Program-made: the position numbers and the translations under genes
Assembly (NCBI RefSeq): GCF_000196115.1
Contig: NC_005027.1
Span: 6,134,001 to 6,198,000 of the forward strand
Source of the DNA: Rhodopirellula baltica SH 1
GTDB taxonomy: Bacteria > Planctomycetota > Planctomycetia > Pirellulales > Pirellulaceae
DNA length: 64,000 nt
Reading direction: 5' to 3'
Part shown: one piece after another, positions 48,501 to 63,926 of the stretch
Layout of the letters: every line of letters begins with the position of its first letter
Position numbering within the stretch: position 1 is the first letter of the stretch
The notes under the pieces: model-generated
Told to the model about the DNA's origin: nothing
The model's database searches: none
Seen by the model: the letters and a program-made list of their open reading frames with translations, nothing else

Positions 48501-48725
48501 CCCGCGAAACGCAGCCAAACTGCCAGCGATCAACCGCTCTAGAAATTGAGCTAGGGCCGAGTGCGCCTCCTCAGAATCGACCGGCGCAAGCATCGCCAAC
48601 CGGGGATCGCCCAGTCGAGCAATCTCGTCTTCGATAGCCTTCGTCAAAAGATGATCGTAGAGTCCCGGTTCCACTAGCTGCCTACTGCCCAATAAGTTTT
48701 TGCTGGCAGAACGACGCTGCCTCAT
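45585..48725 (-). CDS. PLD nuclease-SF2 helicase-DUF3427 protein
   Basis: I choose ATG 48725 (MRQRRSASKNLLG); codons to 48800 overlap the upstream gene. An N-terminal phospholipase-D-type nuclease domain has HAKAYLF followed by YVGSANLSNAALSEG. The SF2 helicase then shows ATGTGKT (motif I), VVDEFHHA (motif II), LGLTATPER (motif III) and QQLGRGLRL (motif VI). The C-terminal region fits DUF3427 (VALGHWNF, GVLHLKDRKHDVFFVTL). Such PLD-helicase fusions occur in defence islands and phage-like DNA repair sets. It ends near the convergent DUF393 gene. It is probably co-transcribed with the gene at 48791. Confidence 0.85.
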   Translation of the reverse strand: MRQRRSASKNLLGSRQLVEPGLYDHLLTKAIEDEIARLGDPRLAMLAPVDSEEAHSALAQFLERLIAGSLAAFRGADAADKQRQLTDRILSTVAEALHDGDAEVLSIASPLRRLLAIHRSVDGSPNERPDSPLSRCSLLTGTRLDASLGSQLRKEISTCDRVDILCSFIKWSGLRVIVDELRELVDRNDELAVRVITTSYMGATDPKAVAALSELPGTEVRVSYDTKRTRLHAKAYLFHRKTGFSSAYVGSANLSNAALSEGLEWTTKISQYELPYLWDKVTGTFETYWQDDEFQAFDIESLPRLRQAISTERKAGTDTGLAINFDLRPFPFQEEILDIIAAERNVQNKYRHLIVAATGTGKTMIAAFDYARVAREAGRKPRLLFIAHRKEILSQAMVAFRCVLRDQNFGDLLVDGSQPEQHEHLFCSIQSYNSRNLQMESAEQFEYVVVDEFHHAAAPSYQSLLEHVQPQILLGLTATPERSDQLDVLSWFGGRASAEIRLPDAISRRLLCPFQYFGISDAVDLDGLTWQRGGYRIDDLDRLYTGNDVRAKLVFEKVAETVLDSQDVRGLAFCCSVAHAEFMARFFDENGIPSIALSASSTNDERNSAQQRLRERSVNFIFVVDLYNEGIDIPEVDTVLFLRPTESLTVFLQQLGRGLRLHPEKECLTVLDFIGAQRKEFRFASRFRALSDKPTAKLDNEVENGFPHLPSGCVIRLERVAQQRVLENVRESIRLVRPRMLSSLRDLKQYLGRVPTLEDALDYFDTTLDELLKRGLWSRLLADAGLVEVAEAQDEKQLAKGLRRLSHINCPLQIQTAMKYLEQDVPPETGIAEMLHVSLWGAQHAEMSLADADKRLRDNSVVTDDLRCVLEYRLKHSPLIANRNATAFEPLAIHAAYTRDEILVALGHWNFNDRPSQREGVLHLKDRKHDVFFVTLQKTEDEYSPTTMYEDYLISHDQFHWQSQSNTSEQSPTGQRYIRHREMGYKPLLFVRETKNLPSGISAPYHFLGPCRCLSHTGSRPISIIWELEYPVPTSLHRTMARQIAV

Positions 48726-48790
48726 GTAACGAACATAGATTCTAGCGACTTGATGCGATCGCTGGTTGCTTGCTCGTATTGAGAGAACGA

Positions 48791-49744
48791 TCAGTACCAA
48801 TCAGGTGGTCGAATGATCTTCGGTCCGCTCGGATGCACTTTGATACTCGCTTCATTCTTCCTACACCAATGCGCGAAGGCACGATCGATTGACGGAGAGT
48901 CGGAGGGCTGAGTGAGAGTCATCCCCAGGTTTGTCGTGAGGTGCACGCGAGCACGATGACCGTCAAATCGCCGATCGGTTTGGTCTAGTTTGCAATAGGT
49001 TGCGATGTCCATCATCCCAGCGCCGGATACGTCATCAAGTGATTTTGATTTGTTGGGAATCACATAGGCGCAAAACTTCGACGGAGCAAAGAGCTTTGAC
49101 ACTGGATCAAAGACAAAATATGTAACGGTACGCCGCTTCCATTGCTCGCTTGCAATCGATCCCGAAACTTGGTGGTTCCACTGGTGAAGACTCCGAACCA
49201 CTTCAAACAACTCAGACGCAAAATGAATTCGATGTCCATCGCTCTCAAGCACGGGGTCAACGACCTGAAAAACTCGTTCTTGCTCGGCCGGGACGTCTAG
49301 CCCTGAATTCTCAAGCTGCTCGAGCGAGGAGTGATTCAGCCGCTTGATTCTCTCCGGTTCGATCGCTGGGAGCAGGACCGTTTGAAACGAGTTGATTCCG
49401 ACGTGTCGAAGCAAGTGGATGGTGTTTGAAGCCAAGTTGCGCCGCCCGCGTGTCACGTGCGAACTGACCATCGAGACAAAAACGTCGCAAGGCTCAAACG
49501 CCTTGAATAAGTGAGAAGTCGCGAATTTCGCATGATTGGCAACCGGATCTGCACGACTGATTTCAAACTCAATCCACAACCTGCGAGTCCCGTCTTCGCG
49601 CTCAAGGCACACGTCCGCTCGGGGGCTGTAGCCGAGCAGCTTTTCCATGCCCGACGAAAGAACACGCTTCTCAGAATCGCAAGTCCAGCCTCTCGGGCAC
49701 TGTGCCGCGAAGGCCTGTTGCATGAATCTCGCTAACTGGCCCAT
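48791..49744 (-). CDS. Possible restriction-endonuclease-fold protein
   Basis: The 317-residue protein has an early segment SPRADVCLEREDG followed by LWIEFEISRADPVANHAKF. This could be a PD-(D/E)xK-type core (D, then E-x-E in place of E-x-K). The C-terminal half (WKRRTVTYFVFDP, FCAYVIPNKSKS) is beta-rich and unrecognised. It lies directly upstream of the PLD-helicase gene on the same strand, so the two may work together as nuclease and helicase. Certainty about the fold is low. Confidence 0.5.
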   Translation of the reverse strand: MGQLARFMQQAFAAQCPRGWTCDSEKRVLSSGMEKLLGYSPRADVCLEREDGTRRLWIEFEISRADPVANHAKFATSHLFKAFEPCDVFVSMVSSHVTRGRRNLASNTIHLLRHVGINSFQTVLLPAIEPERIKRLNHSSLEQLENSGLDVPAEQERVFQVVDPVLESDGHRIHFASELFEVVRSLHQWNHQVSGSIASEQWKRRTVTYFVFDPVSKLFAPSKFCAYVIPNKSKSLDDVSGAGMMDIATYCKLDQTDRRFDGHRARVHLTTNLGMTLTQPSDSPSIDRAFAHWCRKNEASIKVHPSGPKIIRPPDWY

Positions 49745-49794
49745 GGCGTTGTCATGATTTCGATTCCTTCAGGTATGTAAAGCGATGTCGTCAA

Positions 49795-50565
49795 CTATCC
49801 AGCCGTCGCAAGCAGGCGGTCGATTGCCGCCTGCCATCGGTCTTCAAGTGGCACCATCGACGACGACGTCCAGGTCAGACCGCCCACGTCGGCCGTCGTG
49901 GAGTACACCCATTGGGCGACACGGGCCGACGTCGGCAAATCGTTGAATATTCCTCGCACAGTGAAAGCTTCCTGCAATCCGCCACGAAGCGTTAGGTTGC
50001 GATCGACCCACTTGTCCAAAAACTCGGCCGCCGCAATGTGATCGGACTTTGACGAATTGCACGTCGCATGGGCGAGAACGAAGTTGTGCCCGAGATCAAC
50101 GGGATACTTTGCCCAAGGCACGAAGTGATCCACATGAGCCGTCGCCTCCGACAATCCCTTGTCACAATAGAAACATCTCGACGCTCCCGTATCCACTAAG
50201 GCATCGCGAACGCTGTTCAGCTGCGAACGCTCGCTACCGAACATGAACTCGCTGAGGTCAGTCGTCGTGCCCAACAGTTCGCGGTTGTAGCGGCGAACGT
50301 AACGCACCCAAGCACCACGGACAATGTCTCCGAGCAGTCCATAGAACTTGCGGAAGCAAGTCGCGACGCCAGGCCGTAGCGTGATGCTGGTTCCCCTTCC
50401 AACATTCGGGTAGAGGAAGTCAAAGCTCTCACTACCCACCGTTTGAAGCTTCCAAAGTGGCATCTTCCGAACCGTATCATCGACTTGTCGAAGCAGTGGA
50501 TTCCAGACTTGGGAGTTTCCTTTGGCGCAAGCCAACGAGTCACCGAGCGAAGTCCTCGCCTCGGC
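49795..50565 (-). pseudogene. HNH endonuclease gene, 5' end missing
   Basis: The C-terminal half is a clear HNH domain: CFYCDKGLSEATAHVDHFVPWAKYP with the first CxxC and the His-Asp-His core, then N-FVLAHATCNSSKSD with the second metal Cys and Asn. Upstream, VWNPLLRQVDDTVRKMPLWKL still looks like genuine protein. Beyond about 50565 the frame enters the antisense of hsdR. The gene therefore lacks its original start and was cut at the same point as the opposing hsdR. An internal ATG at 50463 could still give a 222-residue product. HNH genes of this size often accompany R-M systems. Confidence 0.65.
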
Positions 50566-50574
50566 AATCTTGTT

Positions 50575-52735
50575 ACCTAAGCAATCAGTACGGCGACTAC
50601 GGTTTGCTGGGCAAGGACGGAAAGCCACTCGCTGTTGTAGAAGCTAAGAAGTCCAGCGAAGACCCTGCTATTGGTCGCGAGCAAGCGAAACAGTACTGCC
50701 TTGATATTCAGGCGGAAAATGGTGGAGAGCTCCCGTTCTGTTTCTACACCAACGGGCACGAGATCTACTTTTGGAATATCGGAGAAGCTCCGCCTAAGCG
50801 AGTCCACGGGTTTCCGACTCGTCAAGATTTGGAACGATTGCTGTACATTCGGAAGTACAAAAAGGCGCTTGTCCATGAGCTGATCAACACTGATATTGCG
50901 GGACGCGACTATCAGATTCAGGCCATCCGAACCGTGATGGAAGGCATCGAAAAGAGTCGCCGCCAATTCCTCCTGGTCATGGCAACCGGAACTGGAAAGA
51001 CTCGCACCTGCATAGCCCTTGTCGATGCGCTAATGCGAGCTGGATTTGTGCAACGAGTTCTCTTTCTGGTCGACCGCATCGCCCTACGCGGCCAGGCCCT
51101 CGACGCCTTCAAGGAGCACATCCCTGATGAGCCACGTTGGCCGGAGCCAGGTGAGAAGTCGATCGCCACGGACCGCCGCGTCTATGTTGCCACCTATCCA
51201 ACGATGCTCAACATCGTGCGTGACGAAAAGAGCGTTCTTTCGCCGCACTTCTTCGATCTCGTCGTTGTCGATGAAAGTCATCGGTCGATCTACAACACTT
51301 ACGGCGAAGTACTCGAATACTTTCACGCGATCACGCTGGGCCTGACCGCGACGCCCCGCGATGTGATCGACCACAACACATTTGAAGTTTTCCACTGCGA
51401 CGACGGCCTTCCCAGTTTCGCGTTCTCATACGATGAGGCGATCAACCACGTTCCGCCATACCTTTGCGACTTTCGCGTCCTGAAGATAAAGACGAAGTTT
51501 CAGGACGAAGGAATCAGCAAACGCACCATCAGTCTAGAGGATCAAAAACACCTCATCCTCGATGGCAAGGACATTGAGGAAATTGTCTACGAGGGGACTG
51601 ACCTCGAAAAGAAGGTCACCAATCACGCCACGAACGCGCTCATCGTGAAGGAGTTCATGGAGGAATCCATCAAGGACCCGAATGGCGTACTCCCCGGAAA
51701 GACGATTTTCTTCTGCATGTCAATCTCGCATGCTCGACGGATCGAGCGGATCTTCGATTCACTCTATCCTGAGTACAAAGGCGAGCTCGCCAAGGTCTTG
51801 GTCTCAGACGATCCACGCGTCTACGGAAAGGGCGGGCTGCTTGACCAATTCACCCGTTGCGACATGCCCCGAGTGGCGATCAGCGTCGATATGCTCGATA
51901 CCGGAATCGACGTTCGCGAGATCGTCAATCTCGTCTTTGCCAAGCCGGTGTTCTCGTACACAAAGTTCTGGCAAATGATTGGTCGCGGCACGCGACTTCT
52001 GGAATCCAACAAGATTAAGGCTTGGTGCCCGAAGAAGGATGTCTTCCAGATCATCGACTGCTGGGACAACTTTGATTACTTTCAGCTCACCCCCAAAGGG
52101 ACAGAACCGAAGCCGCAAATTCCGCTGCCGGTTCGGCTGGTCGGAGTACGCATCGACAAGATTGAAGCCACCCAAGTCTTTGGTCAAACAACAGTAGCCG
52201 ACAAAGAGATCGCGACCCTTCGCAGACAGATCCAGAACACGAATCACTCAGCATCTCGCAATACCGCAAACTCGTCGAAGAGAAGGTCAACGAGTTGACC
52301 GCCAGCAATCCAATCCTCCAGAGGATTCGGGACGGCCTGACTGTTTCCGACGAAGAAGCCGAAGACCTTGCGACGCAACTGCATGACGAGCACCCGCACA
52401 TTACATTGAAGTTGCTGCGTAGGGTTTATCACCATCAGCGGGCCTCGTTCATACGCTTTATCCGTCATATCCTGGGAATCGAAATACTGGAGAGCTTCCC
52501 GGACACGGTCTCAAAGTCGATCGATCAGTTCATCGCCGAGCACCCCGCGCTCAATAGCCATCAGCTTCAGTTTCTGCGACTGATGCGTGATTTCCTGATC
52601 GAACGCGGTGATATCGAAAAGCGTGACCTGATCCAGGCCCCGTTTACCGTTATTCATCCGAGTGGTATCCGCGGCGTGTTCTCCCCCAGTCAAATAAACG
52701 AAATCCTCGCCCTTACCGCAAGTCTGGTCGCCTAA
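50575..52735 (+). pseudogene. hsdR: Type I restriction R subunit, beheaded and frameshifted
   Basis: EcoEI-type R sequence begins near 50580 (GDYGLLGKDGKPLAVVEAKK, the nuclease E-x-K) and runs through MATGTGKTRTC (motif I), VVDESHRS (motif II), LGLTATPRD (motif III) and QMIGRGTRL (motif VI). The N-terminal 30-60 residues are missing; the open frame to 50457 is antisense HNH sequence. Near 52230-52245 the reading shifts frame. The C-terminal EcoEI_R_C-like part continues in another frame (SLSISQYRKLVEEKVNELT, then 52295-52735). Two independent lesions make it non-functional. Confidence 0.85.
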
Positions 52736-52738
52736 CCC

Positions 52739-53770
52739 ATGCTCCAACTCAACGCCGCGCTCAAGGCACTTATCGCCAAGCTGTGGGACCGATTCTGGTC
52801 CGGCGGCATTTCCAATCCGCTTTCTGCAATTGAGCAAATTACATACCTGCTGTTCATGAAGCAGATTGACGAACTTGACTTGAAGCGGGAACAGGACGCC
52901 GAGTTCACTGGGGACACGTACGAATCGCGATTCTGTGGCGATTATTTCCTTCCCAGTGACCGATCACGGATTGAGGAGATGGAGAAGCCAAAGCCAGGCG
53001 AGAGTGCCGCGCAGAAGAAAACCCGAAAAGCGGAAGCAAAGAACGAACGCAAACGACTCGCTATCGACAAAGCCACCCTGCGTTGGAGCCACTTCCGGCA
53101 AATGCCGGCCAACGAGATGTTGCCGCATGTGCAGCAGAAGGTTTTTCCATTCATTAAGGAACTCGATGGTGACGGCAGCAATTTCACCAAACACATGGCG
53201 AATGCCGTATTCATCATTCCCAGCGCCAACCTGCTTCAGGGGGCGGTGCAGATCATTGAAGAGATCTTCGTTGAGATCGAACGCGACGCTCGCGAAGAAG
53301 GGCACCTCTTTCAGGACATCCAGGGCGATGTCTACGAGATGCTACTCAACGAGATAAGCAGCGCGGGCAAGAACGGTCAATTTCGCACACCTCGTCACAT
53401 CATCAAACTGATCAGCGAACTGGTGAATCCCCAGCTAGGTCATCGCGTCTGCGATCCCGCGTGCGGCACGGCGGGGTTCCTGCTCGACGCCTATCAATAC
53501 ATCATCACTCAGCTTGCGAGAAAAAAGGCCAAGAAGAATCAGGAGTTCGAGCCGGACGAAGATGGCTTCATTCGCACCAGCGTCAGTGGCCAACTCGACC
53601 AGAACAAGAAAGATATCCTGGAGCAAAGCCTGTACGGATTCGACTTCGACAGCACGATGGTCCGGCTGGCCCTGATGAATCTAATGATGCACGGCATCGA
53701 CAATCCGCATGTCGATTACCAAGACACGCTAAGCAAGAGTTTTAGCGAGGAAGCCGAATACGACATCGTG
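52739..53770 (+). pseudogene. hsdM: Type I methyltransferase, C-terminal half deleted
   Basis: The N-terminal HsdM_N helices and the methyltransferase motif I (DPACGTAGFLLDAYQYI) are intact, as is the LYGFDFDSTMVRLALMNLMMHG region. The frame then breaks off at YDIVMA, exactly where family members continue with the catalytic NPPF. The next bases encode HsdS sequence in a different frame and the M frame stops at 53792. Catalytic motif IV is therefore gone and the protein cannot methylate. It starts 3 bp after the hsdR remnant. Confidence 0.9.
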
Positions 53771-55079
53771 ATGGCTCAATCAGCACATATTTAATGTTCG
53801 ACTTCGCGAAGACACTGCAATTGACGGAGACTACTTCATTCGTGTCGTCAACAGCGTTCTGACCGAAATCATTCGACAATCACACGGAGGAGTCGGACTT
53901 CAGCACATAACCAAGGCTAAGTTGGAAAAGATTGAAATCCCGCTTCCACCACTGGACGAACAACGGCGGATTGCGGCAGTGTTGGACAAGGCCGATGCTC
54001 TGCGCCGCCAGCGCCAGGAATCTCTGCAACTCACCGAGAAGCTCCTTCAATCCGTCTTCGAAGAAATGTTCGGCAACCCGAGGGAGAATCCAAAGAATTG
54101 GGATATTGTCCCGCTTGGGGAGCTTGTTGCTGATGACGACGCGATTAATTACGGCGTCGTTCAGCCAGGAAAGGACTTTCCAAGCGGCGTCCCGATGATC
54201 CGTCTCGGGGACCTCGCTAACCCCGACCCAACAATGTTAAACGTGAAGCGAATCGACCCTACAATCGACGCTTCCTGCGCACGCTCACGCCTCGCTGGAG
54301 GTGAAGTTCTTGTTGGATGTGTCGGGCATACCATCGGTGTGGCGTGCATCGCACCAGCAGAGTGGGCAGGTGCAAATATCGCTCGGGCAGTGGCGAGAAT
54401 TAGGGTCAAACCCGGAATACCAGCCGAGTTCATACTTCAACAAATTCGGACACCGGCAATTCAGCACTTTTTTCGAGGTGAGCGTCGCATCGTTGGACAA
54501 CCCACTCTCAATATAAAGCAGATTAAGGAGACGCCAATTCTGCTGCCTCCGCACAAACTGTGCGATCAGTTCGTCAAGTTCTATCGGTTGACTGTGGATG
54601 GGCATTCTGACAAACAAAAGAGCACGACGCTCGTTGAAGCTCTGTTCGCCGCGATTCAGCAACGAGCCTTTCGCGGCGAACTGGATTTGAGTCGACTCCA
54701 AATTGACCCACACTTTGATTTAACAACAAAGGCACCATTACCGGGCCATCGGTACCGAGACGGCATTTATAACCGTCCCGGTTTTTTTATCGCTCCTCCC
54801 GAAATCGAGGCCGAACTGCAAGAGTTGGAGACCAAACTTGATAGTGGGCCTGGCGATTCGATTCCTTGGTCTGAAGACTATTTCAAGTACCGAACTCTCA
54901 GCCAACTCTTGATTCCACCTTTCACTTTCAAAAACATTTGGGACAGGGTTGTATATGACATGGAAGAGGCGGAGTACAAAAACGTAAGAGACAAAATATT
55001 CGAATATGTAGAGTCGGGAATCCTTGAGCAGGCATTCGATGAAGCGAACAAAGAAATTGTTTTCAGGCCGAAGTCATGA
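53771..55079 (+). pseudogene. hsdS: Type I specificity subunit, first half deleted
   Basis: In the frame ending at 55079, HsdS sequence starts right at the hsdM break (LNQHIFNVRLRED) and passes through the central conserved helix (IPLPPLDEQRRIAAVLDKADALRRQRQESL). It includes one full target-recognition domain and an unusual C-terminal extension with PGFFIAPPEIEAELQELE and YFKYRTLSQLLIPPF. The first recognition domain is missing. Translation could restart at TTG 53922 to give 385 residues. Without R and M partners it has no restriction role. The extension may link to the AAA protein whose start overlaps its stop. Confidence 0.85.
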
Positions 55080-56896
55080 AGCTGATCCGCCTCAAACTGG
55101 ATGTCCCCTTCCGTAGCCTCCCCGCAGGCTTCGAAATCAACTTCCTACGCGAATGGGATTTCGACCGCTGCTTCGAATTCCACCCCTACTGCTTCGCTGG
55201 TCGCAACGGAAGCGGCAAGTCAAACGTCCTGGAAGCCCTCGCAGCGATCTTCTACCACATCGAATGCATCCACCTTGACTATCGTCCCGAAGGCTTCGAG
55301 TACGACGAGCAAACGAACCATAAAGGCTTTCAAGCCAAAGTCTGCATCCCGGATGCGTTCGAGCTGGAGTATTTCATCCCGATTCGATTGGGCGCTCTCG
55401 ATGGCCTTAATTTTGACGAGACGAAAAACTTCTCTCTTTCGGGCAAAGAACGAGTCCATGTTTCGCTGACAAAAGAGGCAGGTGAAACAGTTCACGCTCG
55501 GTGTGTAAACTTCGATTTCTTAAACAAAGCGAAGGGATTTCTAGAGCGAGCAAGAATCAAGTGGCTGCTCCCGACATTCGTGCTGGGATATTCATCAGGC
55601 CGGAACGAGATTCTGAGTCTGCCATTCTTCAAGATGCGGTTCATCCAATTCGATGAATACCGTGATCATCTCACGCGTGATGTCCCATACGATGGCAAGC
55701 CCGAAGGCCGTCTAGTGTATCTCGACGAGCAGTTTAGCCAAGCAATTCTTATTTGTCATTTTCTGTTCCCCAGTGAGCCAGTCGTACGCGTCTTTGAAGA
55801 GAAAGTCGGACTCCGAGGAATACAACGTTTTCGCATTATCATTCGGCGACATCACCGTCTTGGCCTCGCTGAGGAGCGGCTAAAGACGCTCACCAAAACG
55901 CAGTTGAAAGATTCCTCGCAAACAACGGTCGAGCTGACGTCCAAACTAACTGGATACTACGACGATAATGAAGAACTACAGCTTGGTTTGATCGATAAGC
56001 TCATCAAATGCTCAACAGCACATTACGAGGACTACTCCGCGAATTCGGACGATGATGGTTACGACCTCTATCTGGACTACTGGGTCAACGATGCTACGAA
56101 GCGAGCGTTTCAGGTTCACTTCGGGGAGGCGTCGGGAGAATCGCGAGAAATTGACAAGGCCAAGTCGGCATTGAACCTGTTTCATGCGTTCCAGACATTG
56201 CTCACACTGAATCACTACTCGGTGGATGATGAGACGAAAGCAGAACTGTATCACTCGGGCAGTCTCTATGTGAACGAGACGATCTCCACGCCCGCATCTC
56301 ACGAACGAATCACCCGTTTCAAAGAGGGCGAGCTGATCAAAGACGGCGTGAAGGAACCGCTCTACGTCAAAGCGCTTTCCGACGGCGAACACCAGTTCCT
56401 GCACACGATTGGCCTATGCCTGCTTTATCGCCACGAATCAGCACTGTTCCTCCTCGATGAACCAGAAACCCACCTCAACCCCGACTGGCGAGCGTCCTAC
56501 ATTTCAACTCTGCGAGCCGCCCTGGAAGCCGATGCCGCCACGAAGAACGTGATGCGGGAAGTTCTGCTCACATCGCACTCACCGTTCATCATCTCCGATT
56601 GCCAAAAGGACAACGTCTTGGTTTTCACCAAGAATCCTGAAAACCAAGACGTAACCTGGCAGCGCCCTGATTTCGAAACGTTTGGTGCATCGGCTAACGC
56701 CATCACAATCAAGGTCTTTGACCGCAAAGAGACAATCGGTAACTACGCTCTGAGCAAGCTCGTTGCCCTCCGAAAGCGTCTTGACGATGGCGAGTCCCCG
56801 GACCAACTCATCGACGAAGCAGGTCGGGAGCTGGGTGACTCCGTTGAGAAGGTGCTTTTTATCAACCAGGTGCTGAATAAGAAGGAAACGAGGTAA
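55076..56896 (+). CDS. Restriction-system-associated AAA (ABC-like) ATPase, Septu PtuA-like
   Basis: The 606-residue protein has an SMC/RecF-type ATPase split over the chain. Walker A is FAGRNGSGKSNVLEALAAI (about 41-59), the signature region ALSDGEHQFLHTIGL is near 438, Walker B is FLLDEPETHLNPDW near 460-473, and the H-switch is LLTSHSPFII near 505. This is the PtuA/OLD-like layout without a Toprim domain. Known relatives sit in type I R-M loci and pair with an HNH protein. The start overlaps the hsdS stop by 4 bp and the HNH gene follows by 4 bp. No lesions are seen, unlike the hsd genes before it. Confidence 0.88.
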   Translation: MKLIRLKLDVPFRSLPAGFEINFLREWDFDRCFEFHPYCFAGRNGSGKSNVLEALAAIFYHIECIHLDYRPEGFEYDEQTNHKGFQAKVCIPDAFELEYFIPIRLGALDGLNFDETKNFSLSGKERVHVSLTKEAGETVHARCVNFDFLNKAKGFLERARIKWLLPTFVLGYSSGRNEILSLPFFKMRFIQFDEYRDHLTRDVPYDGKPEGRLVYLDEQFSQAILICHFLFPSEPVVRVFEEKVGLRGIQRFRIIIRRHHRLGLAEERLKTLTKTQLKDSSQTTVELTSKLTGYYDDNEELQLGLIDKLIKCSTAHYEDYSANSDDDGYDLYLDYWVNDATKRAFQVHFGEASGESREIDKAKSALNLFHAFQTLLTLNHYSVDDETKAELYHSGSLYVNETISTPASHERITRFKEGELIKDGVKEPLYVKALSDGEHQFLHTIGLCLLYRHESALFLLDEPETHLNPDWRASYISTLRAALEADAATKNVMREVLLTSHSPFIISDCQKDNVLVFTKNPENQDVTWQRPDFETFGASANAITIKVFDRKETIGNYALSKLVALRKRLDDGESPDQLIDEAGRELGDSVEKVLFINQVLNKKETR

Positions 56897-56900
56897 CATC

Positions 56901-57992
56901 GTGTTGTTCAGTTACAAATACGTTTCACACAGCATCGAAGCGTTTCAGACTTGGCTCGATCACTTGGTAAAAGAGGTGTGGTGCAAGGCGACCGACACTT
57001 TCACGCTGGACCTGCTGCATCCCACATTAAGGGAAGTCGTCGAGGATATTTTCAACACCGAAGAGGACAAGACAAAAGGCAAGATAAAGACGGACTGGCT
57101 GTATGGGCCTATCACGACGATTTACGACATCTTCAAAGATGAGCTGAGTTCGACTCAGCGTCAACAAGTTGCCGAGTGGTACGACGTCAACAACGACATT
57201 GAGGCACTTTGCTCCTGTGATCCCACCAAAACCCCACGCACGTACGCAGATGTGCGGGCGATCAATGAAGACTTGGAAGAGCATCTGAAAGCGTTCTGCC
57301 AAAGCTTGTTCACGAATGTGATTGGCCTTGATGCAGTCACGTCTCGAATCGGTGACATCGACTCCCATTACATCGAGTTCGTGAAAACCAACAAGGCTGG
57401 CAAATGCCCCTACTGCGGTTACAACGATATCAAGGGTGAGCATCACTCTCGGCGTGAAGCGTATGATCATTTCCTGCCGAAGGGCGTATACCCGTTCAAC
57501 TCCGTCAATTTCCGCAACCTCGCTCCAATGTGTCATGAATGCAACTCAAGCTACAAGTTGAAGCTTGACCCAGTTCGACATATTGACCCCATCCGCCGAA
57601 AGAACACCGATGCCCCGCGAAAGGCGTTCTACAGTTTTTCTGCCAATAGCCCGGCGATTTCAGTTACTGTGACGCTCAAAACGGATGACGCGATCAACAT
57701 GACCTGCAATGACATCGAGCTAGAACTCGATTCACCCGGCTGCGATCAGGAAATGGAATCGTGGTGCGATGTGTTTGGAATTGAAGAGCGATACAAGGCG
57801 AAATTCTGTGCCGAGAACGACGGTAAAGCTTGGCTCCAACATGTCATCGAGGAGTCAGTCAACTATGGGCGATCTGTCGACGAGTTGCTTGCAGAGATCG
57901 ATCGCGCAGCAACTCGCGCACCGCTTGACAGCAGCAATTTCCTCAAGAATGCATTCTTGACAGCGTGCAAGCGAAAAAAGATTCTCCGGTAA
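56901..57992 (+). CDS. HNH endonuclease partner, Septu PtuB-like
   Basis: The 363-residue protein has an HNH domain with CPYCGYNDIKGEHHS, then EAYDHFLPKGVYPF with the catalytic His, and NLAPMCHECNSSYKLKLDP with the second Cys pair, at about 167-220. A helical N-terminal region precedes it and a C-terminal extension (DSPGCDQEMESWCDVFGIEERYK) follows. In Septu and in retron-linked systems such an HNH protein cleaves nucleic acid when released or activated by the AAA partner; some family members cut tRNA. The gene is 4 bp after the ATPase and appears intact. Confidence 0.85.
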   Translation: MLFSYKYVSHSIEAFQTWLDHLVKEVWCKATDTFTLDLLHPTLREVVEDIFNTEEDKTKGKIKTDWLYGPITTIYDIFKDELSSTQRQQVAEWYDVNNDIEALCSCDPTKTPRTYADVRAINEDLEEHLKAFCQSLFTNVIGLDAVTSRIGDIDSHYIEFVKTNKAGKCPYCGYNDIKGEHHSRREAYDHFLPKGVYPFNSVNFRNLAPMCHECNSSYKLKLDPVRHIDPIRRKNTDAPRKAFYSFSANSPAISVTVTLKTDDAINMTCNDIELELDSPGCDQEMESWCDVFGIEERYKAKFCAENDGKAWLQHVIEESVNYGRSVDELLAEIDRAATRAPLDSSNFLKNAFLTACKRKKILR

Positions 57993-58076: not shown

Positions 58077-58388
58077 TTATGCCGGTTCGACTAGGAATAG
58101 CGTTACCTCTTGTGTGATGATCGCTCGGTGGGCAGTGGCAGGGCCGGCTGGAATCGAAAGTGCGTCGCCCTCGCGAAATTGAACACGCGAATCGGTGAAC
58201 TCGATTTCGAATTCACCGCTGACGACAAAACCGACATGTGCCTTGGTGCAGGGATCGGACTCGACAAATGGCGGGGAGAACTGAACCAAGCGGATTGTCT
58301 GGTTTGCGTCAGTGAAACGCTTTTCTCTCGCGCCGGGAGCGATTTCGACCCACGGTAAGTCGGAGAATCGTTTGAGCACATCATTCAT
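58077..58388 (-). CDS. Small cupin-domain protein
   Basis: The 103-residue protein is a single cupin barrel. TKAHVGFVVSGEFEIEF gives the first motif with one His, and FREGDALSIPAGPATAHRAI the second with Gly-Asp and a His. Metal ligation may be reduced because the usual His-x-His is HVG only. It overlaps the endonuclease V gene by 4 bp, so the two are co-transcribed. Ligand unknown. Confidence 0.85.
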   Translation of the reverse strand: MNDVLKRFSDLPWVEIAPGAREKRFTDANQTIRLVQFSPPFVESDPCTKAHVGFVVSGEFEIEFTDSRVQFREGDALSIPAGPATAHRAIITQEVTLFLVEPA

Positions 58389-58909
58389 ACTGGTTGTTCT
58401 CCTCGGCTGAGTCGGTCGACTCGCTTGAGGATGGTTGGAAACCGATGGGGGCCGTGCATGGCAGCGATCTTGCTAGCCGCCTGGGCGACAGGAATGCCGG
58501 CAGATGTGATGTATAGCGGTCGAGTACTTCCGCCTCGCTGTAGCTCGTGAGCGTGCAGTGATCGCTTGAATGGATTCTTCGCGACGCCGATCACGGGAAT
58601 CGCTTGATTCAGAGCATCGTGAAGGTAGTTGCCGAGGCCAGGATGGTCGAGGTCGTCCAACCACACGTAACCGTCAATGACGATGTGCGTTGGTGGATTC
58701 AGGAGTTCGCTTAGAACCGCTTTGATGCACGGCAATTCACGCAGATAGAACTGCCCAGGTTGATAGTCTTGGACCGCATCGACATTGACGACCAATTCAC
58801 TCAGTGACGTAGCATCTCCCCAATCTTTGATGACAACGCAGGCAGCGAGCGCTGTCGTTGGATCAGTTTCAGACTCGGTGTAGCCGACGTCGATGCAGGC
58901 GATGGTCAT
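58385..58909 (-). CDS. Endonuclease V-family protein
   Basis: At 174 residues it is shorter than the usual 220. Active-site blocks are present: ACIDVGY (catalytic Asp near residue 7), YQPGQFYLRELP (catalytic Glu and the PYxP-like wedge region near 50-60), VIDGYVWLD (second Asp near 80) and IGVAKNPF with Lys near 110. The C-terminal helix AQAASKIAAMHGPHRFPTILKRVD is also typical. Endonuclease V cuts next to inosine in DNA and, in several organisms, in RNA including tRNA. Its position downstream of Ro60 and the Y-RNA array makes an RNA role attractive but unproven. Confidence 0.85.
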   Translation of the reverse strand: MTIACIDVGYTESETDPTTALAACVVIKDWGDATSLSELVVNVDAVQDYQPGQFYLRELPCIKAVLSELLNPPTHIVIDGYVWLDDLDHPGLGNYLHDALNQAIPVIGVAKNPFKRSLHAHELQRGGSTRPLYITSAGIPVAQAASKIAAMHGPHRFPTILKRVDRLSRGEQPV

Positions 58910-59879: not shown

Positions 59880-61538
59880 TTACAGTTCGACGGATTCGAC
59901 TTCGCGGACGAAGCGGGATGCGTCGATTTCTAGGAACGATGAGACGACGTTGAACACGGCGTCACTGAAGCCGCCGATGTTCAGGATGTCGTCTCGCTCA
60001 GGTGCCTGACTGGTTCCGTAGGGTTGGATGTCGATGCAGACTAGCTTTGGATCGACAACGCCGAGTCCACGCTGGGTCTTCTTGAACTTCTCCCACTGCG
60101 TCATCACTCCGGTTGAACCGTTTTGGCCGTAGCCGTAGCGACGTCCCGAGGTGATCCAGCTTTCGTTGTCGCTGACCAACACGATGCCGGCGAAGGCTTG
60201 CTTCGCGTAACGCGTGTTGGCTTCGACAAATGGCAGCGAGCAGTCCGTTCCTCCGCCTCCGTACTTCGACAAGCGTGCTGACAGAGACAGGATCGTATCG
60301 CTTGGATCGACCTTGACCTTGTAAGCCTGCGTATCGAATGGAATCACGACGCTGTCCGGGTTGCGACGCAGGATCGCTGCTGCGAACAGTGCCGCAACAT
60401 CGACGCATCGCATCTTCGACGTTCCGCCGCGACCACGGTTTCCTGTGACTGGGCAGCCCATCGAACCTGACGTGTCGAGTCCGATGATGACCGGTCCAGG
60501 CAGCGTTGGTACGTTTCCGCACGCGATCTCGGCAGCGTCATGCAACGCCGACTTGATCTTGCTTGGAACCTCATCCGATGCGTTCATGTAAGCCGCCAGG
60601 AACTGGTACGGGAACTGACGGCTGCGAGCGATCGCGTCGCGGTCAGCCAGTTGGCCGGCCACGTAGTCGATCATCGCGTTGTCGGTTCCTGCAAATCCGA
60701 GGATTCCAGGCTTCTTGAATGCGTCGTGACGCAGTAGCGTGTTGAGGTTCATCCGCAGTGCTTGCGGTCCCATTTGTCGGGCGATCGCCTTCCAAACCAA
60801 CGGTCCCTTGGCTGCATCGGCTAGCAAGTCCCATCGAACTTGCAGGTCGCCGGCGATCAGCGTTTGGGCTTCGGCCGTGTCGGCTGCTCGGTAAGCGACC
60901 AACGACTGCACCGTCGAAGGCAGGCTGTCAGCCGTAGCTGGTGCCCACTTCTCGACTGGCTTGTCGGTCAACCATCCGAACAACGCTCGACGTGCGTCGT
61001 CCTTTGGCGTTGGACGTGCCATTCGCAAGATGTCTCGCAGGCTCGGATCGTTACCGATCGAAGCTGAGAGCAACTTGCCAACAGACGCGTCGTTGAGCCA
61101 ACGTTGGAACGCACGCTGCAGCGAAGACGACAGACCCTTTCGACCGAACTGTCCCGAACGAGTCATTTGGAAAACGGTGCGTAGTACGCGGCCGTTGTCC
61201 GCGACTCGGTCGAAGACTTGGTGCATGAGCTTGGTGTCTCGAGTCGACAGTACGACCAGCAGCGCCGCCGGCATGTCCTTCATGTAAGCACGCTCACGTG
61301 AGTAGACGGCCAGCTTTGCCAGAAACTCGTTGTCGTCGATCTCGTCGATCAGCTTTCGCATCGCGTCGAGTTGGTTTTGCGCGGACGCATAATAGACGTT
61401 ACCGAAAGTGCCGGTCGCAGCCATTTGGGCGAGCGCGTGCTTCGCGGACATCCTGTACGCTGGGCCGCCCGCTTCGTTGACGACGGTTGCACGTGGCAGG
61501 ACGCTGGTGATGCTTTGGAATAGAGACTTGTTGGCCAT
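59880..61538 (-). CDS. rsr: Ro60/Rsr protein (TROVE + vWA)
   Basis: The 552-residue protein has a TROVE domain of helical repeats (about 25-330; YKMS-like [23 protein letters not shown], then [26 protein letters not shown]) and a C-terminal vWA domain. The vWA MIDAS is intact: [11 protein letters not shown] near 347-357, T near position 375-380 and [10 protein letters not shown] near 430. This is the size of bacterial Rsr and vertebrate Ro60. These rings bind Y RNAs on the outer surface and misfolded RNA in the hole. An AGGAGGT ribosome site lies 6-7 bases before ATG 61538. The Y-RNA-like array ends about 80 bp upstream on the same strand. Confidence 0.95.
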
Positions 61539-61615: not shown

Positions 61616-61618
61616 TAA

Positions 61619-61762
61619 ACGATCCGACGAGGTTTGGTGCAGAGGTGGCTCCCAAATGAGCCACGTCGCCGGTTTTGACCAGCCAATTCGGCGGGGTCGT
61701 TACGCAAAGCGGCGACGAAGGGAATCGAACTCTTATGTACTCCACTCCGGCAGTCGGATCGT
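61619..61762 (-). ncRNA. Y-RNA-like unit A (tRNA mimic, permuted)
   Basis: The ends pair as a 10-bp helix (61619-61628 with 61753-61762). Helix 2 is TGGAG/CTCTG. On the minus strand the order inside is T-arm (AAGAG-TTCGATT-CCCTT, one mismatch), an 8-bp acceptor-like stem CGTCGCCG/CGGCGACG with a long internal cap, then a D-arm-like hairpin GTGGCTC-ATTTGG-GAGCCAC. This is tRNA order rotated so that the 3' half comes first. It is the unit nearest Ro60. Only three T follow the closing helix. Confidence 0.7.
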
Positions 61763-61851
61763 GTGTCTTGCCACCGCGAGCGAAACGTCCCGAACGAAAT
61801 GGGACCGTTTCGACACGCAATGGTTTTGTGTTGTTGAATCAAATCGAAAAA

Positions 61852-61969
61852 ACACTCGGCGAAGTGTTGGTCAGAGACCCGTGTCGCTTTCGAGAAAGCT
61901 GGCGGGGCGGGGCTCGAACCCGCTGGACCTTTCGGTCGTGCCATGTACTCCGAACCGGCAGCCGAGTGT
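61852..61969 (-). ncRNA. Y-RNA-like unit B (reduced tRNA mimic)
   Basis: Closing helix of 9 bp (61852-61860 with 61961-61969), helix 2 CGGAG/CTCTG, conserved ACTTCG on the 3' strand. Inside are a GACC-GAAA-GGTC hairpin with a GNRA loop at the anticodon-arm position (61926-61937), a T-arm GCGGG-TTCGAGC-CCCGC and an acceptor remnant CCCG/CGGG carrying a GCTTT-CTCG-AAAGC hairpin. No D-arm. Six T follow on the minus strand. Confidence 0.75.
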
Positions 61970-62013
61970 GTTTCGATGTGTTGTCATCTGTGGAAGTAGT
62001 GATGCAAAAAACG

Positions 62014-62161
62014 CGATCGACGAAGTTGTGACCAGAGGGTTTTACGGTGCTCTACCACTGAGCTACGGCGCTGCAATCTCGCGAATGGCAGTTGCGCCGG
62101 TGGGACTCGAACCCACGACACCCGGCTCCTGAAGCATGTACTCCGAATCGGCAGTCGATCG
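62014..62161 (-). ncRNA. Y-RNA-like unit C (permuted tRNA mimic)
   Basis: Closing helix 62014-62021 with 62154-62161; helix 2 CGGAG/CTCTG. The 3' tRNA half (GTGGG-TTCGAGT-CCCAC, CGGCGC) precedes the 5' half (GCGCCG, complete D-arm AGCTCAGTGGTAGAGC), giving a 6-bp acceptor stem. A GCTT-CAG-GAGC hairpin recalls a tRNA-Leu(CAG) anticodon arm. The strand break is in the anticodon stem. Six T follow the closing helix. Confidence 0.8.
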
Positions 62162-62171
62162 TGTGCGCTTT

Positions 62172-62446
62172 CTATTTCGTTTTCTTCTTGGTGGTCTTTC
62201 CCATTTGTTTCCAAAGGGAACGGCCGTTGTCTCGGTCGAGCCGGACGAGTTGTTGCTGTCGTGTGTCGAAGGCAATCAGGTTTCCCTTGGGACGCTTCGC
62301 GTAAACGAACGGCAAGCAAACGGCGATGACTTTGTGCGGTTCGCCGGCTGCGCGAGGCAAGTAGCGAAGTCGAACAAGTTCGTCGATAGGTTGCGAGATG
62401 CCAGAGCAGTCCCATAAGTAGGACGGAAGCTCGATGATCTCGCTGA
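62172..62446 (-). CDS. Doubtful small protein gene inside the array
   Basis: An open frame of about 90 codons starts after a TAG at the edge of unit D and ends at 62172. The readable text (PTILSEIIELPSYLWDCSG, RPKGNLIAFDTRQQQLVRL, KQMGKTTKKKTK at the end) looks protein-like, with a hydrophobic strand and a basic tail. No ATG or good ribosome site is present near its beginning; the first TTG is at 62360. It may be a gene fragment, or a small protein using a rare start. It interrupts the otherwise tight spacing of the RNA units. Confidence 0.35.
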
Positions 62447-62462
62447 GGATGGTGGGAAAACG

Positions 62463-62594
62463 CGACTAACGAAGTGGTTGATCAGAGAAAATGTTCTGCC
62501 AATTAAACTACGAGCGAACCGAAGCTTGCTCGGTGGGAATCGAACCCACACCTTTCGATTAAGAGTCGATGTACTCCGATGCGGCAGTTAGTCG
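62463..62594 (-). ncRNA. Y-RNA-like unit D (tRNA-Lys-like mimic)
   Basis: Closing helix 62463-62470 with 62587-62594; helix 2 CGGAG/CTCTG. The inner part has a tRNA-Lys(CUU)-like anticodon hairpin TCGA-CTCTTAA-TCGA with a 7-base loop, a T-arm GTGGG-TTCGATT-CCCAC, and an acceptor CGAGC/GCTCG closed by a short cap with a C(UUCG)G tetraloop (62519-62524). It then has a D-arm with AGTTTAATTGGCAGAAC. The break is between D-arm and anticodon arm. Four T follow. Confidence 0.8.
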
Positions 62595-62603
62595 TGTACG
62601 GTG

Positions 62604-62738
62604 GGCGACGAAGTTTGTGGCCAGAGGTTTTTTCCTGAGCTATCGGCGTTCCTTGTGGATACCGAGCGGGGCTTGAACCCGCGACCTCGTCGCTCTCACG
62701 ACGCGCTCTAACCTATGTACTCCGAACCGGCAGTCGCC
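62604..62738 (-). ncRNA. Y-RNA-like unit E (D-loop-split tRNA mimic)
   Basis: Closing helix of 6 bp (62604-62609 with 62733-62738); helix 2 CGGAG/CTCTG. On the minus strand the 3' D-strand GGTTAGAGC leads into an anticodon-position hairpin CGTCGT-GAGA-GCGACG with a GNRA loop (62688-62703). Then come a T-arm GCGGG-TTCAAGC-CCCGC and an acceptor TCGG..TCC with GGA..CCGA capped by ACAA. The 5' D-strand AGCTCAGG closes the set. The tRNA is split in the D-loop. No T-tract, so processing from a longer transcript is likely. Confidence 0.78.
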
Positions 62739-62761
62739 TTGTATTGTTGTTGTGTGTAAAA

Positions 62762-62897
62762 ACGATTGACGAAGTTTGTTAATCAGACAGATTCGATGCT
62801 CTACCAACTGAGCTACGAAGCGAACACAAGGTTCACTTCGGTGGGACTCGAACCCACGACACCCGATGTGATGTAGTCCGATTAGGCAGTCAATCGT
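62762..62897 (-). ncRNA. Y-RNA-like unit F (permuted tRNA mimic)
   Basis: Closing helix of 9 bp (62762-62770 with 62889-62897). Helix 2 is CGGAC/GTCTG, a compensatory change against CGGAG/CTCTG elsewhere. T-arm GTGGG-TTCGAGT-CCCAC; the acceptor is a continuous 10-bp helix CGAAGTGAAC/GTTCGCTTCG with a 5-base cap; the D-arm is AGCTCAGTTGGTAGAGC. A short TCGA/TCGG anticodon stem stacks toward helix 2, so the Y stem replaces the anticodon loop. Five T follow. Confidence 0.82.
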
Positions 62898-62904
62898 GTA
62901 TTGG

Positions 62905-63035
62905 TGGCGACGAAGTTCTGGACCAGAGGTTTCTGTCTGAGCTACCACTTGCTTTCGCAGCGGACGGGAATCGAACCCGCGACCTCGTCACTCGCGTGAC
63001 GCGCTCTCCCATGTACTCCGAACCGGCAGTCGCCA
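62905..63035 (-). ncRNA. Y-RNA-like unit G (D-loop-split tRNA mimic)
   Basis: Closing helix 62905-62911 with 63029-63035; helix 2 CGGAG/CTCTG. The anticodon position holds CGTCAC-GCGA-GTGACG with a GNRA loop (62986-63001). T-arm GCGGG-TTCGATT-CCCGT; the acceptor CCGCTGC/GCAAGTGG has one bulge and a GAAA cap; the D-stem strands GCTC and GAGC lie at opposite ends, so the split is in the D-loop as in unit E. Units E and G share long stretches and look like recent duplicates. Confidence 0.8.
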
Positions 63036-63060
63036 TGTGTTGTTGTTAGCGGGATCAAAA

Positions 63061-63204
63061 ACGACTGACGAAGTTTTGACCAGAGAATCTATCCTGCGTG
63101 TCTTCCAATTCCACCACAACGATCTTGCGATCGCTGGCGGGACTCGAACCCGCAAGGCTTGTAGGCCACAGAAGCCCATGTACTCCAAATCGGCAGTCAG
63201 TCGT
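63061..63204 (-). ncRNA. Y-RNA-like unit H (tRNA-Leu-like mimic)
   Basis: Closing helix of 9 bp (63061-63069 with 63196-63204); helix 2 TGGAG/CTCTG. T-arm GCGGG-TTCGAGT-CCCGC; an 8-bp acceptor CAGCGATC/GATCGTTG capped by the GNRA loop GCAA; then a D-arm GTGGTGGAATTGGAAGACAC, which is close to the tRNA-Leu D-arm. A GGCT/AGCC hairpin with an inner TGT/ACA stem may stand for the anticodon or long variable arm. Five T follow. Confidence 0.8.
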
Positions 63205-63213
63205 GTTTTGTAA

Positions 63214-63339
63214 ATGGCGACGAGGTAATGACTCAGATCACTAACGCATAGGAATCGAACCTACCGATCGTGTTGCCACGATCCCCAGACTCACTGGACG
63301 CAATCATTGGTGGATGGATTCCAAGCCGGCAGTCGCCAT
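63214..63339 (-). ncRNA. Y-RNA-like unit I (diverged)
   Basis: Closing helix of 8 bp (63214-63221 with 63332-63339); helix 2 TGGA/TCTG. Inside, in unrotated order, are a CCAG-TGAGT-CTGG hairpin in the D-arm position, a GATCGTG-GCAA-CACGATC hairpin with GNRA loop (63266-63283), and a T-arm GTAGG-TTCGATT-CCTAT. No acceptor stem could be paired. It keeps the flank signature and is clearly a family member, but its tRNA likeness is weaker. Confidence 0.68.
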
Positions 63340-63347
63340 GTTTTGTA

Positions 63348-63531
63348 AAAGTCCAACGAAGTTGTTTGCCGAGAAAACCGCTCTTATCGACAGCAATGCC
63401 GTCGACAGTGGGCGCACGACGACGATCCTCATGGAGATTCATCGACGCTCACGCTGCTTCCGGTCGCCCGGAAGCTCGATACCTTAGGGTCCTCATAGTT
63501 AGGATGTATTCCCAGCAGGCAGTTGAACTTT
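63348..63531 (-). ncRNA. Y-RNA-like unit J (long, non-tRNA interior)
   Basis: Closing helix of 10 bp (63348-63357 with 63522-63531) with one G-U pair on the minus strand; helix 2 TGGGAA/TTCTCG. The 184-nt interior lacks a T-loop. It holds an 8-bp hairpin with a GCGA GNRA loop (63456-63475) and a TCGAC/GTCGA hairpin. The interior has evidently been replaced while the ends were kept. A TTTT run overlaps the 3' end. Confidence 0.65.
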
Positions 63532-63538
63532 GTGTTGT

Positions 63539-63611
63539 GATCGACCAGCGAAGGTTTTGAATCAGACGGTTCTTTAGCAAAGATGTATTCCGATTCGTCA
63601 GTTGGTCGATC
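63539..63611 (-). ncRNA. Y-RNA-like unit K (minimal stem-only form)
   Basis: A 9-bp closing helix (63539-63547 with 63603-63611), the ACTGACG and ACCTTCG internal-loop strands and helix 2 CGGA/TCTG are present. Only a small CTTT-GCT-AAAG hairpin caps it. At 73 nt it is the bare flank module without any tRNA-like part, so it defines what all units share. It begins 4 bases after the tRNA-Cys 3' end on the minus strand. Confidence 0.68.
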
Positions 63612-63614
63612 AAG

Positions 63615-63685
63615 AAACGCTGGTGGGAGTCGAACCCACTTAAACCGGGTTGCAGCCGGCCGCCTAGCCATCTGGCTCCAGCGTT
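63615..63685 (-). tRNA. tRNA-Cys(GCA)
   Basis: A normal, unpermuted tRNA: acceptor AACGCTG/CAGCGTT with U73 (the Cys discriminator), D-arm GCC-AGATGGCTA-GGC, anticodon arm GCCGG-CTGCAAC-CCGGT with anticodon GCA, a 4-base variable loop and T-arm GTGGG-TTCGACT-CCCAC. CCA is not encoded. It heads the Y-RNA-like array on the same strand and may be co-transcribed with it. Confidence 0.93.
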
Positions 63686-63761: not shown

Positions 63762-63926
63762 TCACAGACGCCCCGATCGTAGGCAACAACGTTTGAACCG
63801 CTGACCGCTGCCGCATGGGCACAGGTCGTTTCGGCCGAGTTTCTCCTCGAGTTGCTTGCCTTGGATGATTCGGACTCCGCGTTTGACTTTCGTTTCTGAC
63901 GGGTAGCCCTTACGACGTTTGCTCAT
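63762..63926 (-). CDS. Small SEC-C motif protein (54 residues)
   Basis: ATG 63926 gives a 54-residue protein with a basic start ([17 protein letters not shown]) and a C-terminal SEC-C motif, [18 protein letters not shown], with the CxCx8CC zinc ligands. SEC-C motifs occur at the end of SecA and in many stand-alone proteins, where they bind zinc and partner proteins or RNA. It lies about 80 bp upstream of tRNA-Cys on the same strand as the Y-RNA array and Ro60. Confidence 0.85.

Follow-up and report, generated by a model that had tools for sequence, protein, structure and literature searches.

Y-RNA-like genes with tRNA-like and 23S rRNA-like modules upstream of Ro60 in Rhodopirellula baltica

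An array of Y-RNA-like units upstream of Ro60

The genome of Rhodopirellula baltica SH 1, a single contig of 7,145,576 bases, carries a gene for a Ro60 relative that is preceded on the same strand by a tandem array of Y-RNA-like units. The stretch of 64,000 nucleotides (nt) analysed here is referred to as the window. An earlier sequence-only reading had described eleven such units on the minus strand, and all eleven are borne out at 61617–63613, with a gap of about 80 nt to the Ro60 gene. They are lettered A to K toward Ro60 (Table 1). The host locus as fetched (L041; L-numbers denote fetched Ro60 loci) extends beyond the window and contains a twelfth unit, A0, together with an array of tRNA genes. 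Both lie almost wholly beyond the window and had not entered the first description. With twelve units counted, its view that the locus holds a whole repertoire and not one or two copies stands.

Every unit has the same layout: a closing helix, CTGCC-like and ACTTCG-like boxes, a second helix and then a variable module. In the second helix, which is usually CGGAG/CTCTG, the 5′ strand is followed by TACAT; unit F indeed has the compensatory variant CGGAC/GTCTG that had been reported for it. The closing helices had been described as 6–10 base pairs (bp) long, paired in every unit and all different in sequence. Each unit does have its own paired helix, but the measured range is 5–10 bp and 11 of 12 are distinct, as C and E both end in TGGCGA, of which G shares GGCGA. 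The ACTGCC-type 5′ strand, also said to be common to all, is ACTGAC in unit A.

A descriptor scan of the host locus at a threshold of 30 recovered 10 of the 12 units, against one match on the opposite strand and none in five dinucleotide shuffles. The two missed were C and K, true units for which the threshold is too strict. When the fetched loci were scanned (86 runs at threshold 31, with some loci overlapping or sharing a genome), 279 matches were obtained against 25 on the control strand; upstream of Ro60 relatives, host included, the three sets gave 204, 33 and 42 against 13, 10 and 2. The scan lets through some false matches, namely coding sequence, real tRNAs (L106_7728) and probably L190_1818. 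In 85 Ro60 stretches, some of them short, the left box alone, with no pairing required, gave 277 occurrences, all of them on the Ro60 strand and none on the opposite one; 42 of the 277 have no right box within reach. For stretch-wise, TTTT and D-arm counts the threshold was 33–34. At least one unit scoring 33 or more is present in 66 of the 85 stretches, and the 19 others are mainly distant Ro60 loci (about 45% identity) and some short contigs. The array upstream of Ro60 recurs in many planctomycetes.

The distant Ro60 loci, which belong to other planctomycete classes (L133, L187–L198), have no comparable array; the one match, in L190, looks false. This locus has 31 tRNAs on the strand of Ro60 but lacks a convincing Y unit of the present type; it may carry Y RNAs of another kind. 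In the viral_contigs set the box motif gave one match per contig among the matches listed, and neither a close Ro60 relative nor the helix 71 mimic pattern described below was found there. When the units were clustered, 121 of 237 had no counterpart in the window at the chosen cut; they were kept in all other counts. The biggest class consists of relatives of unit I (24 sequences aligned, the window's included).

Covariation was assessed by partner shuffles of flank pairs and by pair counts in family F, and it extends across loci. Among 146 distinct flank pairs, 85 pair at 7 or more of 8 positions; 1000 partner shuffles gave 17.1 such pairs on average and never more than 28. All four Watson–Crick combinations are represented at flank positions 5 and 7. 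In family F (16 sequences, the window's included) 95.6% of structure cells are paired, against 26–42% in slid controls, and two-sided changes are found in 15 cells against 5.4 in shuffles. Compensatory changes are also seen in the module helices. Of 223 units, 132 have a TTTT run near the closing-helix end, as discrete small RNAs do; in random windows the share is 2.8%.

Independently of the descriptor, the Rfam YrlA model (RF02553) finds four units of the window, F, I, K and H, which agrees with the original proposal of Y-RNA-like genes beside Ro60. Because all scores lie below the gathering score of 69 (best 51.4 bits in the window and 53.4 bits in relatives), we call the units YrlA-like and not members of RF02553. 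YrlA matches were obtained in all six relatives' loci scanned. In F, I, K and H we find a closed basal stem with Ro60-type boxes and a permuted tRNA-like module (model positions 1–114); the basal stem of the model coincides with the closing helix of F and K, and in I and H it is fitted to interior parts of the unit. The units adjoin Ro60 in the genome and their motifs are conserved; in the cell they may be expressed and bound by Ro60.

Table 1. Features of the Ro60 locus, in window coordinates
Feature	Position	Strand	Evidence or remark
Ro60/Rsr gene (TROVE + vWA), 552 amino acids (aa)	59880..61538	minus	Pfam and PDB matches
Unit K: Y stem + permuted tRNA-like module	61617..61763	minus	YrlA 29.2 bits
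Unit J: Y stem ACACTCGG/CCGAGTGT, T-run behind; T-arm + capped acceptor-like hairpins	61847..61974	minus	
Unit I: Y stem + permuted tRNA-like module (T-arm, capped acceptor, D-arm)	62008..62162	minus	YrlA 45.9 bits
5′-truncated remnant of a planctomycete protein family (~123 aa), between H and I	62172..62447	minus	
Unit H: Y stem + permuted tRNA-like module keeping anticodon stem-loop	62457..62595	minus	YrlA 24.9 bits
Unit G: permuted tRNA, opened in D-loop, GAGA cap replacing anticodon	62600..62740	minus	
Unit F: YrlA-like permuted tRNA, 10-bp capped acceptor	62758..62898	minus	YrlA 51.4 bits
Unit E: permuted tRNA, opened in D-loop, GCGA cap replacing anticodon	62903..63036	minus	
Unit D: permuted tRNA-Leu-like module, long variable arm	63057..63209	minus	
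Unit C: Y stem + T-arm with long arm	63213..63341	minus	weak tRNA-Sec match, 23.9 bits (below gathering score, 47)
Unit B: 23S rRNA mimic	63348..63532	minus	29/34 ungapped identity to host 23S
Unit A: Y stem + anticodon stem-loop UUGCUAA	63539..63613	minus	loop = host tRNA-Ser(GCU)
tRNA-Cys(GCA), last gene of tRNA array, directly 5′ of unit A	63614..63685	minus	
SEC-C zinc-motif protein, 54 aa, upstream of tRNA-Cys and unit A	63762..63926	minus	SEC-C 38.5 bits (cut-off 20.4)
Unit A0: anticodon stem-loop CUUGAAA	64022-64095 (beyond window, in L041)	minus	

Modules resembling tRNAs, anticodon loops and 23S rRNA

Each unit had been thought to copy a different tRNA body. This does not hold for A0 and A, which present anticodon stem-loops only, or for B, which resembles helices of 23S rRNA; neither kind of module had been noticed in the sequence-only reading. 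The tRNA-like units do exist, but as circularly permuted forms that are opened at different places, and the count of nine T-arms in eleven units proved right: a T-arm-like element is present in C to K and absent from A and B. Most modules are permuted tRNAs, in which the T-arm comes first, followed by the 3′ acceptor strand, a cap, the 5′ acceptor strand and the D-arm. As judged by reading the sequences, the handle is joined on the anticodon side in F, I, H and K; E and G have their opening in the D-loop, and in both a GNRA cap replaces the anticodon loop. In the tRNA-like modules the acceptor strands are joined by a loop, so that they cannot work as tRNAs. None would be processed into a functional tRNA that has both an anticodon and an acceptor end, as the anticodon region enters the Y stem or is capped.

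Several modules resemble particular host tRNAs. The D-arm, anticodon arm and variable region of unit G resemble host tRNA-Ile(GAU) (score 24.0, the best array tRNA reaching 20.0), and unit D scores 25.0 with host tRNA-Leu(UAA) against 19.0. The acceptor stem of unit K, GGCGACG/CGUCGCC, is that of host tRNA-Cys(GCA), the best whole-tRNA score of the unit not being with Cys. The best host score exceeds the best array score in six of the nine tRNA-like units (D, E, F, G, I and J). The canonical D-arm [GT]AGCTCA is present in 78 of 147 distinct tRNA-like Y units (100–229 nt, with a T-loop motif, helix 71 mimics left out) and in only 27 of 631 distinct array tRNAs; AGCTCA occurs in 23 of 42 of the host's own tRNAs. 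Mimicry of transfer-messenger RNA by units of the K and J type was also considered and did not find support: the best local score was 24 and some matches lay within the Y-stem boxes.

In the anticodon modules the loop of A0 is exactly that of host tRNA-Ser(UGA), and the loop of A that of tRNA-Ser(GCU). We compared the units with the 64 anticodon loops of R. baltica tRNAs, chromosomal and array. Of 96 representative segments, 10 contain an exact loop on a stem of at least 3 bp; 400 rounds of shuffling gave 0.24, with 3 at most. Different loops are seen on one scaffold: TACAT-loop-ATGTG carries Ser(UGA) in L041, L095 and L112, Asn(GUU) in L106 and L107, Tyr(GUA) in L122 and, with one pair fewer, Cys(GCA) in L096 and L101. 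Likewise, unit H (L041) displays the tRNA-Lys(CUU) loop CUCUUAA, and H-like units that were not classed with H at the clustering cut have, on an identical TCGA/TCGA stem, the Asn(GUU) loop in L108 and the Lys(UUU) loop in L116. Other loops across the loci include those of His, Pro and Lys, and one that is Arg(GCG)-like and outside the list of 64.

Unit B contains the hairpin TAACTATGA and the strand CCTAAGGTA, which by our assignment correspond to helices 69 and 71 of 23S rRNA; the whole matched stretch of the host gene we take to be helices 69–71. The match is ungapped with 29 of 34 positions identical, and the pattern was found in none of 100 shuffles of the window. The helix 71 core gave 28 unit matches (B and 27 others), two of which are one locus fetched twice (L105 and L138). 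The helix 69 hairpin is retained in six of the 28. The mimic of the remaining 22 begins with the 3′ strand of helix 69, and in a number of these, judged by eye, this strand can pair with a strand at the far end, so that the handle is at the position of the helix 69 loop; the consensus fold shows this permutation only partly. Twelve-nucleotide words are shared between 23 units and this one 23S site, and no other rRNA site is shared by so many. The mimic is retained at loci from several genera and from a further family of the class. A class-wide search with a helix 71 pattern, which was too narrow, gave 5 of 297 genomes, all of one genus.

A further candidate, mimicry of what we presume to be the sarcin-ricin loop motif, was rejected. 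Its 12-nt core AGTACGAGAGGA is at a hairpin of L121_1462 alone in a pattern search of 198 genomes, and single 12-mer matches to the rRNA locus also turn up with the reversed control (30 positions against 9), so that the core is a hint of such mimicry in that unit at most.

Ro60, the tRNA array and the defence neighbourhood

The Ro60 gene encodes both expected domains, with vWA_Ro60 at 52.3 and TROVE at 28.5 bits in Pfam, each above its cut-off, and matches Rsr (PDB 2nvo) with E=9.1e-20. It scores 79.8 bits with the NCBIfam Rsr model, below the cut-off of 900. It belongs to a divergent branch. The gene is patchily distributed (87 of 199 family genomes, 39 of 68 genera); fragments and absences are found inside the genus, and protein identity between genera reaches 98%. 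This suggests horizontal movement and decay. Neither rtcB nor rtcA is among the annotated neighbour genes, and no genome search was aimed at them.

Directly upstream of the Y units, on the same strand, is a tandem array of 34 tRNAs called by ARAGORN (L041 4115–8498, about 63.6–68.0 kb in window coordinates). It includes Arg(GCG), and by eye a 'Pyl' call is a Ser(GCU) tRNA. In the 85 Ro60 stretches, ARAGORN called 905 tRNAs on the Ro60 strand and none on the opposite one, with at least ten tRNAs in 34 stretches, one to nine in 27 and none in 24. Array tRNAs are on average 61.6% identical to the host isoacceptor (35 comparisons, both host arrays), and host tRNAs 75.7% identical to the nearest other host tRNA. 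The second host array, at G000:C1:425584-427552 (L042), is partial and has no Y RNA box motif; by eye, a transposase-like gene adjoins it.

On the other side of Ro60, a cluster at 45585–57992 ends about 1.9 kb from its 3′ end. The cluster contains a type IV-like restriction enzyme, Type I restriction-modification genes, a PtuA-like restriction-associated AAA ATPase (TIGR04435, 780 bits) and an HNH partner that is PtuB-like. We also scanned 20 of 36 open reading frames listed downstream of Ro60 in nine loci of relatives, and counted a PADLOC family as clear at E ≤1e-20 over most of the protein. Clear families were obtained in five of the nine loci (a raw count; defence genes are common in bacteria): Type I restriction and PtuA in L136, Type I in L137 and L139, DrmD in L135, and GajB and BrxC in L143. 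L134 and L141 gave partial defence matches, and no defence family was found among the scanned frames of L140 and L142. The defence genes downstream of Ro60 are exchangeable between loci.

Other protein-coding neighbours were also seen. The family of about 123 aa, of which the window has a truncated copy, is uncharacterised, planctomycete wherever the source organism is named, and conserved within the Y RNA arrays of relatives; it could be a ribonucleoprotein partner. The SEC-C protein, and a protein of 89 aa without a Pfam family that lies within the tRNA array (L041 oriented 3687–3953), are each found in a number of relatives too. An Endonuclease V gene lies downstream of Ro60 (58385–58909, minus strand), and by eye an EndoV-like coding stretch is near the array in L184 and L185.

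Interpretation and comparison with known systems

We read the units as genuine Y-RNA-type genes for the adjacent Ro60, which would display mimics of translation RNAs as decoys against enzymes that attack tRNA or rRNA, and we put the probability of this at about 0.45. The RNAs would share a common Ro60-binding handle and each display a different host-like mimic, that is, a permuted tRNA body without CCA end, a bare anticodon stem-loop or 23S helices 69–71. Ro60 would hold and stabilise them, and the modules would occupy anticodon nucleases, Septu-type tRNases and other ribotoxins, with the adjoining array providing structurally divergent tRNAs that such enzymes would recognise less well. The array, the handle, the covariation, the mimicry and the conservation are seen in the sequences themselves; expression, Ro60 binding and decoy action are proposed, the last at somewhat less than even odds. 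We favour conflict over housekeeping because loops are swapped on one scaffold, because many Y RNAs stay host-like while array tRNAs drift, and because defence genes adjoin. Two reports are relevant here, both from excerpts of the papers: the tRNA-like domain of YrlA has been suggested as a possible competitive inhibitor of an anticodon nuclease (Hughes 2020; PMC7790460), and a phage tRNA-Tyr counters Septu, which cleaves the variable loop of tRNA-Tyr (PMC13096335). In a wider and more tentative form, which we would not bet on, evolvable Ro60-displayed decoys (anticodon loops, tRNA bodies and 23S subunit-interface helices) and divergent replacement tRNAs together could constitute an RNA-based antidote on a horizontally moving defence island.

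A number of observations weigh against the decoy reading. As whole units, A and A0 score no better with the host Ser tRNAs than with unrelated tRNAs, so the match is to the loop only. Three of the nine tRNA-like units are no closer to the host (array tRNAs outscore host tRNAs for H and K, and C gives a tie), and AGCTCA is present in only 4 of the 12 window units. In family F the number of pairs with a two-sided change is 3, which is not above shuffles. Most of the 22 permuted 23S forms lack the stretch between the helix 71 core and UGUCGGG, presumably helix 70, and by count the sarcin-ricin-like 12-mer, present in a single unit, does not exceed chance. The tRNA array is not universal, as 51 of the 85 stretches have fewer than ten tRNAs. 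We know of no ribotoxin specific for helices 69–71. Salmonella YrlA is not cut by a RecA-dependent tRNA nuclease (PMC7790460, excerpt). Finally, YrlA tethers Rsr to PNPase, and DusA and TruB act on it as modification enzymes (PMC8394870, excerpt); tethering, and not decoying, is the best-known function of a Y RNA module.

The main rival explanation follows from this last point. The modules could form a repertoire of adaptors that recruit to Ro60 the enzymes or factors binding tRNAs, anticodon loops or helices 69–71, which we regard as possible, though with the odds clearly against it. Anticodon loops and helix 69 are both sites of RNA modification, which counts in its favour. The recruited proteins, perhaps PNPase, modification enzymes or factors of translation and assembly, would then build RYPER-like particles for RNA quality control or degradation, an idea we hold just as tentatively. 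Such a role is established for bacterial Y RNAs through YrlA-Rsr-PNPase, DusA/TruB and RYPER, and RYPER prefers structured RNA, including rRNA (PMC8394870, excerpt). By itself, however, recruitment leaves unexplained the divergent tRNA arrays and defence neighbours of many loci and the change of isoacceptor loops on one scaffold.

It is unlikely that the RNAs merely block the Ro60 cavity as a gate, with modules that are functionless tRNA and rRNA fragments recombined in a decaying, horizontally moved tRNA cluster. Degenerate, possibly dispensable tRNA clusters are reported from many planctomycetes (PMC4807772, excerpt), and the patchy presence and gene fragments within one genus, as well as the truncated small open reading frame in the array, fit such decay. 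Functionless fragments would not be expected to pair as the family F structure does (95.6% against at most 42% in slid controls), with compensatory changes in module helices, to contain exact anticodon loops far above shuffles, or to keep the helix 69–71 mimic across several genera and another family of the class. Leader- or terminator-like hairpins of one long tRNA-Ro60 transcript, to which the single strand ahead of Ro60 and the T-runs (132 of 223 units against 0.028) would also be suited, are very improbable, as they need neither mimicry of distant RNAs nor a shared Ro60 handle and do not account for the YrlA similarity.

Whichever function applies, the locus offers natural variation of the module on one fixed handle, so that modules can be tested singly for what each one catches. 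The swapping of real anticodon loops, and the use even of ribosomal RNA, bear on the role of the tRNA-like module of Y RNAs in general. The locus also links supernumerary tRNA arrays, Ro60 in mobile elements and defence islands, and gives a testable reason for their co-occurrence. We found no title or abstract opening describing such a repertoire, which does not establish its absence from print.

The planctomycete tRNA clusters mentioned above are the same kind of array in the same bacteria, but the excerpted text of PMC4807772 mentions neither Y RNAs nor Ro60. TROVE genes are reported in 20 of 29 archaeal tRNA clusters (PMC6333295, excerpt), and jumbo phages may encode TROVE proteins (PMC7824862, excerpt). 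Haloarchaeal and phage tRNA arrays resemble our locus in having Ro60/TROVE in or beside a tRNA cluster; a repertoire of rRNA or anticodon-loop mimics is not among their features as described in these excerpts. Ro60/TROVE is unmentioned in the paper on mycobacterial tRNA arrays (PMC5966550) by term search. The Arthrobacter phage Atuin has its Ro60 gene inside a tRNA array. By eye, about three permuted tRNA-like stretches lie between two of its tRNA genes beside Ro60 (L228 7825–8250), one scoring 31.7 bits with YrlA.

The closest relative is YrlA itself (RF02553; Salmonella, Rhizobium and others), which has the same Ro60 stem, the same permuted module with T-arm, capped acceptor and D-arm, and a gene beside Ro60. 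Our locus differs in having 12 diverse units, where a Rhizobium plasmid locus has three YrlA matches; in modules that also mimic anticodon loops and 23S helices 69–71, some units keeping an anticodon loop; in scores below gathering; and in annotated neighbours that do not include RtcB. The rtcR-rsr-yrl-rtcB operons of RNA repair likewise combine Ro60 with Y RNAs. In R. baltica, by contrast, the RNAs are upstream of Ro60 and beside a tRNA array, with exchangeable defence genes downstream.

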